Below, piece by piece: positions 30,634 through 35,708 of a stretch of DNA of 64,000 nt. A model generated the notes under the pieces. The model was not told the DNA's origin and did no database searches. It worked only from the letters and a program-made list of their open reading frames with translations. The stretch covers positions 992,001 to 1,056,000 of the forward strand of contig NZ_CP064654.1 of assembly GCF_015529805.1 (NCBI RefSeq). Direction: 5' to 3'. How positions within the stretch are numbered: the first letter of the stretch is position 1; each line of letters starts with the position of its first letter. The translations under genes and the position numbers were made by a program. Source of the stretch: Qipengyuania soli (lineage in GTDB: Bacteria > Pseudomonadota > Alphaproteobacteria > Sphingomonadales > Sphingomonadaceae).

Positions 30634-31101
30634 ATGGAAAAGGTGCCGATGCTGGCAGAGGGCTATGAGAAGCTGACTGCGGACCTCAAGGTCCTGCGCG
30701 CCGAACGCCCGAGGATCGTCGATGCAATCGAGGAAGCTCGCGCGCATGGCGACCTCTCGGAAAACGCAGAATATCACGCTGCCAAGGAGCGTCAGGGCCA
30801 GGTCGAAGCGATGATCGCAGAGATCGAGGACAAGGTCAGCCGCGCCCAGATCATCGATCCGACTACTCTCTCAGGCGACAAGGTGATTTTCGGTGCGACC
30901 GTCACCCTGCTTGACGAGGATGACAAGCCGATCAAGTACCAGATTGTCGGCCAGACCGAGGCCGATGCGAACAAGGGGCGGATCAGCTACAATTCGCCCA
31001 TTGGCCGTGCGCTGATCGGCAAGCAGGTCGACGAAGAGGTCGAAGTGACTGTCCCCTCAGGCGACAAGTTTTACCTCATCGAGAAGATCGAGTTCATCTA
31101 G
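30634..31101 (+). CDS. greA: Transcription elongation factor GreA
   Basis: GreA enters the RNA polymerase secondary channel and stimulates cleavage of backtracked RNA. The 155-residue protein (normal is about 158) has the N-terminal coiled coil with the acidic tip [20 protein letters not shown] and the C-terminal FKBP-like domain ([17 protein letters not shown]). RBS GGAAGGAAC lies upstream. Placement right after carAB is a frequent proteobacterial order. Confidence 0.96.
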
Positions 31102-31128
31102 GGCATCGCAAAGGGGGGGGCGAGAGCA

Positions 31129-31416
31129 ATGGCAACACCACCAATCAGGCTGGTCGCCGAAAAGCGTGTTGCCCGGCATTTCCTTGGCAAGGGCGCAACC
31201 AGCGCTGCCGATGCAATCGCCTATGAGCCCGATCTCGGGAGCCGAAAGCGAGCGTTCGACCGCTTGAAGGGCCTCGACATCGTGCGTCCCGGCGGACGCG
31301 ACCGCTGGTACCTCGACGAGGCTCGTTGGGCGGAATTGCGCTCTCAACGGCGGGGCCGCATGGTCACCATGCTCGCCGTGGGAGCCGCCATCGCCGCATT
31401 TGTCGTCACCCGCTGA
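31129..31416 (+). CDS. Small protein with winged-helix-like and C-terminal TM segment
   Basis: A 95-residue protein. Residues 20-70 (ATSAADAIAY, KRAFDRLKGLDIVRPGG, RWYLDEARWAEL) look like a short winged-helix unit, and the C-terminus ends with a basic patch and one membrane helix (MVTMLAVGAAIAAFVVTR). This suggests a tail-anchored protein. It follows greA by 27 bases with a G-rich ribosome site. Family and function not recognised. Confidence 0.7.
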   Translation: MATPPIRLVAEKRVARHFLGKGATSAADAIAYEPDLGSRKRAFDRLKGLDIVRPGGRDRWYLDEARWAELRSQRRGRMVTMLAVGAAIAAFVVTR

Positions 31417-31425
31417 AGCAAGCCT

Positions 31426-31914
31426 TCAGGCCAGCTGCTTCTCCATCGCCCAATTGTGGATCGGGACCATGTGATCGCCGTGCGCGATCTCGAATTCTCG
31501 CCTGTGCGTAGCCGTGTACCCCGAACGCTCGAAGGCCGGGCGGGCGAGATCGCTCGCCTCCGTATACAGCCTGGTGCAGCCGATCGCGCGGGCCTCCTGC
31601 TCCGAACGCTCGAGCAGCTTCTCCGCGATCCCGCGACGCGTATGATCGGGGTGGCAGTATAGATGGTCGAGGTGCCCATCGGCCTCGAGCAGCGTGTAGG
31701 CGACCGGACTGTCATCCGGGTCGGTCGCAACGAAGATAACATGCCCGGCAGCTGCGCGCTCGAGATACCGTTCTGGAGTGTGGTGACGCGCAAACCATGC
31801 GTCGACCTGTTGCTGCGTGTAGGCATGGGTTCCAATGTATGAGATCGCCGCCCCCATGATGCTGGCTAGAGCCTGGGCATCTTCGTCCCGGAAGCGGCGG
31901 ATCGCATACTCCAC
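31426..31914 (-). CDS. GNAT family N-acetyltransferase
   Basis: A 162-residue cytoplasmic acetyltransferase. The fold signatures are YAIRRFRDEDAQALASIM at the start, HLDHLYCHPDHTRRGIAEKL with the acetyl-CoA loop RRGIA, and a C-terminal ARPAFERSGYTATHRREFE. The acceptor is unknown. GTG start; it follows the DUF4170 gene by 12 bases on the same strand, so it may be the distal gene of the stress cluster. Confidence 0.88.
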   Translation of the reverse strand: MEYAIRRFRDEDAQALASIMGAAISYIGTHAYTQQQVDAWFARHHTPERYLERAAAGHVIFVATDPDDSPVAYTLLEADGHLDHLYCHPDHTRRGIAEKLLERSEQEARAIGCTRLYTEASDLARPAFERSGYTATHRREFEIAHGDHMVPIHNWAMEKQLA

Positions 31915-31926
31915 CTGATCAGTTCT

Positions 31927-32157
31927 TTAGGCGCTCGGATCGAGCAACTTGTGCAGGTGCACGACCACGTACTTCATTTCTGCATCGTCGACAGTCCGCT
32001 GTGCATTGGCGCGCCATGCGTCGACCGCAGCGTCGTAGCTGCTGAACACGCCGGCAACATGAATGCCTTCGGGGTCGGCGAAGGTCACAGCGCGGGGATC
32101 GGTCACGCGACCGCCCATGACGAGGTAGAGCGTCTGCTTGCTCTCGGTTTCTTCCAT
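31927..32157 (-). CDS. DUF4170 domain-containing protein
   Basis: The 76-residue protein matches the small alphaproteobacterial DUF4170 family: TLYLVMGGRVTDPR, HVAGVFSSYDAAVDAWRA, AEMKYVVVHLHKLLDP. Predicted as a compact alpha/beta protein with no signal; role unknown. It lies downstream of a hairpin terminator that separates it from the DUF883-like gene, and close to the GNAT gene. Confidence 0.85.
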   Translation of the reverse strand: MEETESKQTLYLVMGGRVTDPRAVTFADPEGIHVAGVFSSYDAAVDAWRANAQRTVDDAEMKYVVVHLHKLLDPSA

Positions 32158-32210
32158 TTTGAAGTCTTTCTCGAAGGGGGAGGAGGAGATTGCGTGCGCC
32201 CCATAGCGAA

Positions 32211-32242
32211 AGCGGCGCGACAGGCAACCCCGTCGCGCCGCT
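32211..32242 (-). terminator. Hairpin terminator after the DUF883-like gene
   Basis: AGCGGCGCGAC and GTCGCGCCGCT form a perfect 11-base-pair stem with a 10-base loop, 24 bases past the stop codon at 32267. Only a short TTTC run follows on the minus strand, so termination may be partial and read through into the DUF4170 gene. Confidence 0.6.
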
Positions 32243-32266
32243 ACGGCATGCTTAAAAAGTGGGCTC

Positions 32267-32800
32267 TCAGTGGGTCAGGCGCGTCTTGATGGCCTGAGCT
32301 GCACGCGATCCGCCACGCGTCGCCTTGCGAGATGTAGCCCGTAGGACCTCACCGGCGGCATCGAGCCTGCCTGCTGCTTCGCGACGTAAGTCACGGGCGG
32401 TCGAGGCTGCCGTTTCTCCAAAATCTTCGAAACGATCGCCAGCCAGGTGCGCTGCGTTGCTGGCGTTGTCGATCATGCGTGCACCGTATGCGAGGGCCGC
32501 GTCGGCAACGAGGCCGGCGAACACTCCACCACGTTTGCCTAGGCGGCGCCCCGGCTTGGTCATCGCGCCAATGGCGAGGCCGACGGCTATCGCGCCGCCG
32601 ATGACAGCGTAGGGGTGCTTTTTCGTGAATGCGACTGCAGTGTCTGCGGCGTCCTTCGCCTGGTCGACCAGGGTTCGCTGCTCGTTGCGCTTCTCACCTG
32701 CCTCGATGCGTGCGCGCAGCTGGTCACGCTTTTGCTGGTCGGAGAGCTTGCTGTCGGCACTGATAGGGGTGACGTTGGCGGGTTTGGCGGTGTCGGCCAT
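32267..32800 (-). CDS. DUF883/YqjD-like membrane-anchored protein
   Basis: A 177-residue protein: polar N-terminus, helical charged region, then TKKHPYAVIGGAIAVGLAIGAMT, the single hydrophobic segment seen in ElaB/YqjD-type proteins, and a basic helical tail (RDLRREAAGRLDAAGEV, RATSRKATRGGSRAAQAI). YqjD of E. coli is an inner-membrane ribosome-associated protein of stationary phase. A GGAAC-N17-CGTT promoter lies just upstream and GGAGG lies near the ATG, so EcfG control is likely. Confidence 0.75.
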   Translation of the reverse strand: MADTAKPANVTPISADSKLSDQQKRDQLRARIEAGEKRNEQRTLVDQAKDAADTAVAFTKKHPYAVIGGAIAVGLAIGAMTKPGRRLGKRGGVFAGLVADAALAYGARMIDNASNAAHLAGDRFEDFGETAASTARDLRREAAGRLDAAGEVLRATSRKATRGGSRAAQAIKTRLTH

Positions 32801-32832
32801 GATTTCCTCCAGAATATGTGTCTCGGCGATGA

Positions 32833-32858
32833 AACGCTAATCAGCGGCTCACCGTTCC
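32833..32858 (-). promoter_or_regulatory. EcfG-type promoter for the DUF883-like gene
   Basis: On the minus strand GGAAC (32858-32854), 17 bases and CGTT (32836-32833) match the alphaproteobacterial EcfG consensus. It overlaps the end of the preceding gene and leaves about a 25-base leader with GGAGGAAATC before the ATG at 32800. Confidence 0.7.
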
Positions 32859-33172
32859 TCCGCTTCGTCGCGTTCGGCTGCCGCATCGTCCGGTTCCTCG
32901 CCCAGTCCGAGCAGCGAAAGAATAGGATTGCGAGCGAACCACACGACCACTGCTGCGATTAGCGCCGCAAGTGCGCCCTTGTTGTCTTCGGCGACCTCGA
33001 CGGCTTCTTCGTAGATATCGACTGCGCCCTCTCGCACCTTGTCGAAGGCGCGTTCGGTCAGGCCACGTTGGGATAGGCCAGTCTTGAGGTGTTCCAGGTC
33101 GGCCTCCACCAAAGCTTTGGCGGAATCGCGCAAATAGCGATCTTCGATCATTCGGGCGCGACGGTCGCTCAT
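32849..33172 (-). CDS. Small membrane protein of the stress cluster
   Basis: A 107-residue protein: MSDRRARMIEDRYLRDSA, an amphipathic charged helix, then one membrane helix (GALAALIAAVVVWFARNPIL) and an acidic tail (EEPDDAAAERDEAEER). The organisation resembles YqjK/YqjD-like small proteins, but I cannot give a family name. The ATG overlaps the stop of the holin-like gene by 4 bases. A longer upstream frame is rejected because it runs inside that gene. Confidence 0.75.
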   Translation of the reverse strand: MSDRRARMIEDRYLRDSAKALVEADLEHLKTGLSQRGLTERAFDKVREGAVDIYEEAVEVAEDNKGALAALIAAVVVWFARNPILSLLGLGEEPDDAAAERDEAEER

Positions 33173-33597
33173 TCGCCAGAATCCTCGAATGCCGAACGGA
33201 TATCTTCGATACGCCCCTTTAGCAGTCGCAAGAGAACGAAACCCGCTATGACTAGGAACAGGGTGACGATGCCGGTCGCGATCCACGGTCCCACGAGCGG
33301 GACCAGTGCGATTACGACACCCACGGTCGCGGCGATCAGCGCAAGGTGGAAGACCCCAAAGGCTCCCAAGCCAAAGGCTACCGCCCCGGCTGCGCGATTG
33401 GCCGCATAACCCGCGCGGCTCTTCTGGAACGCGACTTCTGCCTCGGCATAAGTCTTTCCGTCGTCGATCAGCGCGAAGATATCGTCGGTGAGCGAGGGAC
33501 CGTTACCGGTGCCTTCCTCTTCCGACGGACCATATTCATCGGGCAGGTCGAGCGGTCCGGAAAACTCTTCCGACCGCTCGATACCTTCATCTCTCAT
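33169..33597 (-). CDS. Phage holin-superfamily-like membrane protein (YqjE type)
   Basis: A 142-residue protein with an acidic N-terminus (EYGPSEEEGTGNGPS), an amphipathic helix (LIDDGKTYAEAEVAFQKSR) and two long membrane helices (AVAFGLGAFGVFHLALIAA, and IATGIVTLFLVIAGFVLLR). This matches the Phage_holin_3_6/YqjE family, which is chromosomal and not phage-derived. It lies 24 bases after the YqjD-like gene and is coupled to the next gene. Confidence 0.8.
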   Translation of the reverse strand: MRDEGIERSEEFSGPLDLPDEYGPSEEEGTGNGPSLTDDIFALIDDGKTYAEAEVAFQKSRAGYAANRAAGAVAFGLGAFGVFHLALIAATVGVVIALVPLVGPWIATGIVTLFLVIAGFVLLRLLKGRIEDIRSAFEDSGE

Positions 33598-33621
33598 CTG
33601 CAGCCCCTCCGCGTGGTCGGA

Positions 33622-34245
33622 TTAGCGCGACCGGCGGAACAGGCGGGACAGGAAGAAGCCTGCAATTGCGGCGATGCCGATGGCGGTGCCGGGGCTCTTG
33701 CGGACGAATTCGCGACCATCTTCGACGAGGTCGTCGACTGTCTTTTCGTCGAGCTTCGCGGCATATCCATCGAGCGTGCGCGATGCCGAACGGGCATAGT
33801 CGCCATACTTGGCACCGAGGCGGTCATCGACTTCCTGGGCGTTTTCGTTGACCACGCGGCTGAGGGCGCGCAGGCCTTCGCCCGCCTTCACCTTGCCTTC
33901 GGTGGCCAGTTCCTTGCCCTTGACCTTGGCATCGGCTCCATAGGCCTTCGCATCGGCCACCCAATCTTCGCTCTTGCCCTTGGCCTGATCGCGGTAGGCG
34001 ACAGCGCGGTCGCGGCCTTCGGCCTTGAGGGCGGCAGCGCCTGCCTTGGCTTCTTCGAGCGCGGCGTTGAAACGCGACTTCGCTTCTGTGCGGTTATCAG
34101 TGGTCATGGGAGTGGTCTCCTTTGCTTCACCCTTGCTTGCCGCGGGCTTGCGCGGCTTTGCGGTGGTGGACTTTTTCGCGGTGTTTTTCTTGGTTCCGGT
34201 GGTCTTGGTCTTCTTTGGCGCCCCGGTTGCTGGAGTGTCAGCCAT
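33622..34245 (-). CDS. YqjD-like tail-anchored protein with Lys/Thr-rich N-terminus
   Basis: The 207-residue protein has a highly basic low-complexity N-terminus (KKTKTTGTKKNTAKKSTTAK), a long charged helical middle (several K/E-rich stretches) and a C-terminal membrane helix (GTAIGIAAIAGFFLSRLF) ending FRRSR. The order basic-helix-TM fits DUF883/YqjD proteins that link ribosomes or nucleic acid to the inner membrane; the link is inference. AAGGA precedes the ATG. It is the first gene after an EcfG-type promoter. Confidence 0.78.
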   Translation of the reverse strand: MADTPATGAPKKTKTTGTKKNTAKKSTTAKPRKPAASKGEAKETTPMTTDNRTEAKSRFNAALEEAKAGAAALKAEGRDRAVAYRDQAKGKSEDWVADAKAYGADAKVKGKELATEGKVKAGEGLRALSRVVNENAQEVDDRLGAKYGDYARSASRTLDGYAAKLDEKTVDDLVEDGREFVRKSPGTAIGIAAIAGFFLSRLFRRSR

Positions 34246-34315
34246 CGTTCTTGTCCTTGCCCTCAAATTCGTATTCATCACCGCTACTCTTGTCGAACGC
34301 GGTAGTCCTTGATGC

Positions 34316-34340
34316 AACGCAACTTGCGCCCCGATGTTCC
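34316..34340 (-). promoter_or_regulatory. EcfG-type promoter for the YqjD/YqjE-like cluster
   Basis: GGAAC (34340-34336), 16 bases, CGTT (34319-34316) on the minus strand is an exact match to the general stress sigma factor EcfG consensus. It reads toward the ATG at 34245 with a leader of about 65 bases. Confidence 0.75.
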
Positions 34341-34349
34341 GGAGCATAG

Positions 34350-35708
<1,359 letters not shown>

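Follow-up and report, generated by a model that had tools for sequence, protein, structure and literature searches.

Which function may join four small membrane protein genes lying next to the enolase gene of Qipengyuania soli, and why are two of them preceded by a motif resembling the promoters of the general stress response (GSR)? The genes reside in a DNA stretch of 64,000 nucleotides (the window; contig NZ_CP064654.1, positions 992,001 to 1,056,000) of a genome made up by one contig of 2.91 Mb. An earlier note on this DNA had described four consecutive genes of this kind, similar to E. coli yqjD-yqjE-yqjK, and two promoters of the sigma factor EcfG. The genes are present as four open reading frames (ORFs), here called A to D, and both motifs are found exactly where the note had placed them, with spacers of 16 bases before A and 17 before D. 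The range noted, 31927-34340, takes in a fifth gene, encoding a DUF4170 protein. The features first needed are, in window coordinates:

33622..34245, minus strand: gene A, 207 aa, ATG at 34245
33169..33597, minus strand: gene B, 142 aa, hydrophobic hairpin; PF07332 (Phage_holin_3_6, the family of YqjE)
32849..33172, minus strand: gene C, 107 aa, without a family above cut-off; its single hydrophobic segment spans residues 67-85
32267..32800, minus strand: gene D, 177 aa, ATG at 32800; YqjD/YgaM-type glycine-rich anchor (residues 62-81, approximately), then a tail
34316..34340, minus strand: P1, GGAAC-N16-CGTT, located 70 bp upstream of the A start codon; probable EcfG promoter of A-B-C(-D)
32833..32858, minus strand: P2, GGAAC-N17-CGTT, located 32 bp upstream of the D start codon; probable EcfG promoter of D
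34419..35708, plus strand: eno (enolase), divergent from A, named by sequence recognition, with no family scan

The reading frames of B and C share 4 bp. The explanation we favour, with a confidence that is about evenly balanced, is that A-B-C-D make up an EcfG-controlled operon whose products reside in the inner membrane; it would be a variant form of the YqjD/YqjE cassette, acting as a tether at times of stress, and its promoter and that of eno would exclude each other. A stress-induced inner-membrane tether is favoured because the locus combines proteins with YqjD-like anchors, one protein of YqjE's family, and two probable promoters of the type used by the functional counterpart of RpoS.

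Conservation of P1 and P2

The raw number of motifs is unsurprising. GGAAC-N15-18-CGTT occurs four times in the window versus 1.95 expected, a count reached by 13 of 100 shuffles, and the strict motif has 39 matches genome-wide, fewer than the 85 of a reversed-pattern control. Position and conservation are the part that is not due to chance. Both were monitored in 57 loci gathered around B, reduced to 50 upon removal of seven duplicates, and grouped according to their similarity: 34 are of the Qipengyuania type (L001-L011 and L028-L057 minus duplicates; L028 is the copy in the window itself), and 16 are sister-genus loci (L012-L027; the record of L025 is named Qipengyuania, but its B is only 42% identical).

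Motif conservation had been set beforehand as a check. Strict P1 resides in the eno-A intergenic region of all 34 Qipengyuania-type loci (dinucleotide shuffles: mean 0.07, maximum 2, n=300), strict P2 in the 110-bp region upstream of D in 31 of them (mean 0.12, maximum 3, n=300); many of these loci are closely related, and are therefore not independent. The P2 exceptions are L011, with CATT as -10 box, L054, in which no motif is seen, and L057, in which GGAAC is retained and CGTT found 8 bases on. In seven further genomes of the same genus strict P1 is present in 7/7, strict P2 in 6/7, L153 carrying GGAAC-N17-TGTT. When P2 regions are aligned with no motif requirement, identity is 94% or more in every box column, and 35-82% in the 17 spacer columns. 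The -35 box of P2 sits within the final codons of C. The distance from P2 to D is constant, 56-59 bp in motif-bearing loci, while the end of C shifts by tens of bases; the P2 boxes keep their place relative to D and are independent of the C reading frame.

Outside of this group the two motifs differ in distribution. Strict P1 is found in 9/16 sister-genus loci, and in nine of 20 distant regions sampled across 19 further genera of this family (shuffle mean 0.04, maximum 2); a looser motif, GGAAC-N16-18-[CGT]GTT, is found in 15 of the 20 (shuffle mean 0.20, maximum 2). Strict P2 is found in four of the 14 distant regions having D (L112, L116, L120 and L122; no shuffle control). P2 thus occurs regularly in the Qipengyuania group and sporadically in other genera, and is lacking in the sister-genus loci tested; its wider distribution makes P1 the more general element. 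The gaps weigh against the favoured explanation: strict P1 is missing in seven of the 16 sister-genus loci (L019-L024, L027), strict P2 in all 15 sister-genus loci tested, in 4/41 Qipengyuania-type or same-genus loci and in 10/14 distant regions having D, and in five of the 20 distant regions neither the strict nor the looser P1 motif occurs.

The same motif has been derived by experiment as the GSR promoter in Sphingopyxis granuli (PMC7083833), and the GSR promoter of Sphingomonas melonis is close to it, its sites clustering no more than 100 bp from start codons (PMC6599016), as both P1 and P2 do. One promoter sequence published for Sphingomonas melonis (PMC6599016, Table 1), used to relate the locus to the regulon of that species, had no match in 295 genomes of one genus, guessed to be Sphingomonas. 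A nepR gene is recognized in the window genome by a Pfam match above cut-off (2078123-2078224), followed by an EcfG-like ORF, identified by eye and not by a family scan, with GGAAC-N16-CGTT upstream. The conservation of both motifs, together with a nepR/ecfG-like locus carrying the same promoter, strongly supports, on sequence grounds, EcfG control of A-D.

Anchors of A and D and the YqjE family member B

The product of A features an N-terminus of about 50 aa, variable in sequence and basic in the window genome, a middle part of amphipathic Ala/Lys/Glu helices with the core EAKSRFNAALEEAKAGAAAL, and a C-terminal membrane anchor of the YqjD type. Among 48 orthologues extracted, L013 and L037 had no core motif and were left out; the remaining 46 all carry a hydrophobic segment close to their C-terminal end, and in 42 the N-terminus has a net positive charge. 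D carries its anchor in mid-protein, and continues with a basic, helical tail of about 95 aa. Profile alignment by hhalign of the A anchor to YqjD, ElaB and YgaM gave scores of 37.0, 32.6 and 32.8, respectively, that of the D anchor 40.9, 33.9 and 42.7; A and D align to one another at the anchor as well. Shuffled YqjD tails (n=100) reached at most 17.9 with A and 21.3 with D, and E. coli YhaH, an unrelated membrane protein used as negative control, scored 10.1 and 13.9. With scores far above those of the shuffled controls, A and D appear to share the YqjD/ElaB/YgaM membrane anchor.

B scored 41.9 bits with PF07332, over a cut-off of 28.4 (E. coli YqjE: 75.8), and the family is matched at E<=0.1 by all 22 aligned B rows, in agreement with the holin-like second gene of the earlier note. 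The Pfam name of this family, Phage_holin_3_6, would fit a phage-derived holin/lysis or anti-phage module. We regard such an origin as very improbable: E. coli YqjE belongs to PF07332 as well, the cluster holds a constant site beside eno in 50 loci and 20 distant regions, PHROGs gave no family for A-C and a 15-bit match of unknown function for D, and PADLOC gave two weak matches only, both to A (about 11 bits). C was tried both as a YqjK homologue (PF13997), and rejected for want of similarity, and as a third anchor protein, and rejected because profile alignment gave no anchor signal.

In E. coli (PMC10746276, PMC10502375), YqjD, ElaB and YgaM bring ribosomes to the inner membrane in stationary phase under the control of RpoS; YqjD is a C-tail anchored DUF883 protein which binds the 30S subunit, its gene has a sigma-S promoter of its own inside yqjCDEK, and overexpression of either YqjD or YqjE halts growth. 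As in yqjC-yqjD-yqjE-yqjK, a tail-anchored protein is followed in the window by a PF07332 protein and by a third small membrane protein, the anchor is similar, and control by a general stress sigma factor is probable (sigma-S in E. coli, EcfG here). The two sets differ in that A and D have no DUF883 N-domain, C is not YqjK-like, eno is the neighbour, the sigma factor is another one, and a second anchor protein, D, is present, with a probable stress promoter of its own and a long tail past the anchor. ElaB and YgaM resemble A and D in the anchor region (hhalign scores of 33-43); unlike A and D, they have DUF883 N-domains and are not encoded beside a PF07332 gene. The similarity to yqjD-yqjE-yqjK on which the earlier note rested thus holds for B and for the anchors of A and D, and fails for C, as well as for the N-terminal domain of DUF883.

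Several further results bear on the assignment to the YqjD group, most of them against it. PF05957, the DUF883 N-domain, is absent from A-D, and has no match above cut-off in the whole genome. PF19029 (DUF883_C, the glycine-zipper anchor) matches below cut-off, D scoring 17.6 versus 27 bits; at E<=0.1 it is found in 14/20 D rows and in 13/24 A rows (the A profile was made of the window protein and 23 of the 48 orthologues extracted). Among A-D only B is above a curated cut-off, A, C and D having no Pfam or NCBIfam family. Direct alignment of B to YqjE fails (probability 0.5), and a search of solved structures with B gave nothing at E<=0.1. The N-terminus of A has net negative charge in four of the 46 orthologues, so a basic end is not universal. 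AlphaFold models of A and D consist of long helices of modest confidence (pLDDT 65 and 61). The sole match of A in a profile search of solved structures, the ATP synthase b-delta chain (E 0.0019), is taken as a coiled-coil similarity.

The helices of A bring in the main rival explanation, in which the cluster serves EcfG-controlled protection of the envelope or membrane, the A helices and the D tail coating the inner membrane in the manner of late embryogenesis abundant (LEA) proteins or apolipoproteins under desiccation, osmotic or oxidative stress, with no ribosome involved. In its favour, the Apolipoprotein model finds each of the 24 A rows at E<=0.1, long helices are predicted for A, genes for the envelope figure prominently in the GSR regulon of Sphingopyxis (PMC7083833), and a DUF883 N-domain is not detected. 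The Apolipoprotein matches are, however, weak (window A 17.1 bits, cut-off 90) and given by YqjD and ElaB as well, and the anchor is specifically YqjD-like. We consider this role possible, on the unlikely side.

As an EcfG-controlled tether, the cluster would work as follows. PhyR would remove NepR, and RNA polymerase carrying EcfG would transcribe A-B-C, and possibly D, from P1, D being additionally transcribed from P2. A and D would insert into the membrane via the glycine-rich YqjD-type anchor, A at its C-terminus and D in mid-protein, their long helical segments, basic in the window genome, presumably facing the cytoplasm; B and C may act as membrane partners. In growth arrest the tether would hold a large, negatively charged cytoplasmic partner at the membrane, as YqjD does in E. 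coli. By analogy with YqjD, ribosomes are the first candidate cargo, nucleic acid the second; the case for ribosomes is weakened because the DUF883 N-domain, the ribosome-binding part of YqjD, is not detected in A and D. If true, gamma- and alphaproteobacteria would both place YqjD-type anchors under unrelated general stress sigma factors, which would argue that membrane tethering is central to growth arrest, and whether EcfG governs the hibernation of membrane-bound ribosomes could be directly tested. No paper joining YqjD with EcfG was found in the literature searched; supplementary regulon tables, which lay outside the search, may already list the locus. Among the papers listed, holin is not mentioned in those on EcfG/PhyR, and DUF883 is mentioned in none of those looked through for it.

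P1 and the probable eno promoter

A point not raised in the earlier note is that P1 is interleaved with a probable promoter of eno. The P1 spacer contains, in the window as in relatives, GCAAG, which reads CTTGC toward eno and is a probable eno -35 box; on the far side of GGAAC, TAT.C reads as the eno -10 region (GCATAGAGC in the window).

34323..34352, plus strand: CTTGCG (34323-34328) and GCATAGAGC (34344-34352), forming the probable eno housekeeping promoter, which is interleaved with P1

GCAAG and TAT.C are invariant in 49/49 aligned loci (34+9+6; L024 left out), six of which have no strict P1. In the seven same-genus loci added later GCAAG is found in 7/7, TAT.C in 6/7. The boxes appear to resemble the alphaproteobacterial housekeeping type (TTGaCgS ... 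GCTAnAwC). Two results speak against a promoter at this place: TAT.C is absent in L153, and a scan with a generic E. coli-type sigma-70 consensus finds no eno promoter. From the conserved sequence, the eno boxes are a probable housekeeping promoter, its -35 and -10 taking turns along the DNA with the EcfG boxes of the opposite strand.

The two sets of boxes do not imply each other. In six distant regions (L105, L111, L114, L115, L117, L123) the looser EcfG motif has no GCAAG at that place of the spacer, and the overlap is thus neither intrinsic to the EcfG motif nor family-wide. Conversely, strict P1 is absent in six loci retaining the eno boxes, which accordingly do not force P1. P2 has no conserved GCAAG in its spacer. 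These data bear on the possibility that the cluster lies outside of the EcfG regulon, GGAAC...CGTT being kept for some other reason and the genes serving general membrane organization. In its favour are the lack of genome-wide enrichment of the motif (39 matches vs. 85 of the reversed pattern), the constraint which the probable eno promoter places on part of P1, and the absence of P2 from the sister-genus loci tested. Yet P2 is free of the eno overlap and the spacing of both its boxes to D is held at 56-59 bp despite the shifting end of C, and in the six loci mentioned the eno boxes persist with no strict P1. This possibility appears improbable.

For an EcfG-controlled cluster, the interleaving of the boxes has a consequence. 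In this lineage the EcfG -35 lies between the eno -35 and -10, the eno -35 within the EcfG spacer; since the boxes are interleaved, the EcfG and housekeeping holoenzymes should exclude one another, and the P1 and eno promoters are, judging from their layout, probably mutually exclusive. Transcription under stress would then lower that of eno. It is a tentative and rather doubtful extension that the arrangement is a hard-wired growth/stress switch, in which the two holoenzymes cannot bind together and the start of the tether operon shuts eno transcription with no repressor. If true, the overlap with the eno promoter would connect the stress response to central metabolism in a simple way that needs no repressor. 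Among the papers listed for Erythrobacter, the general stress response, EcfG and enolase, enolase occurs only in PMC10890935, and EcfG is not found there.

Distribution in the family and neighbouring genes

Also new with respect to the earlier note is the spread of A, which is near-universal among the family genomes listed. The A profile found matches in 212/296 genomes of the order. Among the genomes listed, all matches fall in the window's own family, 212 of the 213 family genomes being positive (the exception is G086); 64 non-matching genomes are not listed. The order of genes is kept in all the 20 distant regions, eno being divergent from A, and B and the DUF4170 gene following. C is present in 15-16 of the 20 (profile, E<=0.01), in some weakly. 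D lies downstream of B in 14; in L107 and L115 the sole D matches are within or beside A. The reading frames of C and D overlap by 4 bp in seven sister-genus loci (L019-L023, L025, L027). The bacteria of the family are mostly environmental, and a set of small membrane proteins has been kept beside eno in them.

Three relatives (L058, L059, L060) have an additional PF07332 gene with stronger scores (73-82 bits), residing elsewhere in the genome, apart from the eno-linked copy. The ORF upstream of it ends, by eye, in a stretch resembling a tail anchor. The two arrangements are alike in the pairing of a PF07332 protein with such an upstream ORF, and differ in location and in the stronger PF07332 scores; the second copies were rejected as the same cassette, being at a separate locus.

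Beyond D, the DUF4170 gene is followed by a GNAT acetyltransferase gene. The latter (gene F) was considered as an elaA homologue, as elaA adjoins elaB, and rejected. The DUF4170 gene comes after the cluster in 20/20 distant regions and in 49/50 nearer loci, the contig of L016 ending there. The remaining features are:

31927..32157, minus strand: DUF4170 gene (PF13773), conserved neighbour downstream of A-D, putative member of the operon
34374..34397, plus strand: 24-bp dyad GGTGTnnTA-N6-TAnnACACC in the eno leader, found by genome scan and in relatives

The dyad is preceded by CCCCATTTGGGG; with no more than one mismatch allowed, it occurs nowhere else in the genome. An Rfam scan of 31000-35000, dyad included, gave no match at E<=1. 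The dyad is found in many Qipengyuania-type loci, is absent in L056, L147, L149 and L151-L153, and may be an operator or an RNA hairpin. At 31129-31416, adjoining greA, lies a small ORF of 95 aa that has a hydrophobic stretch at one terminus and belongs to no Pfam family; similar sequences reside in five loci only, L019-L023.

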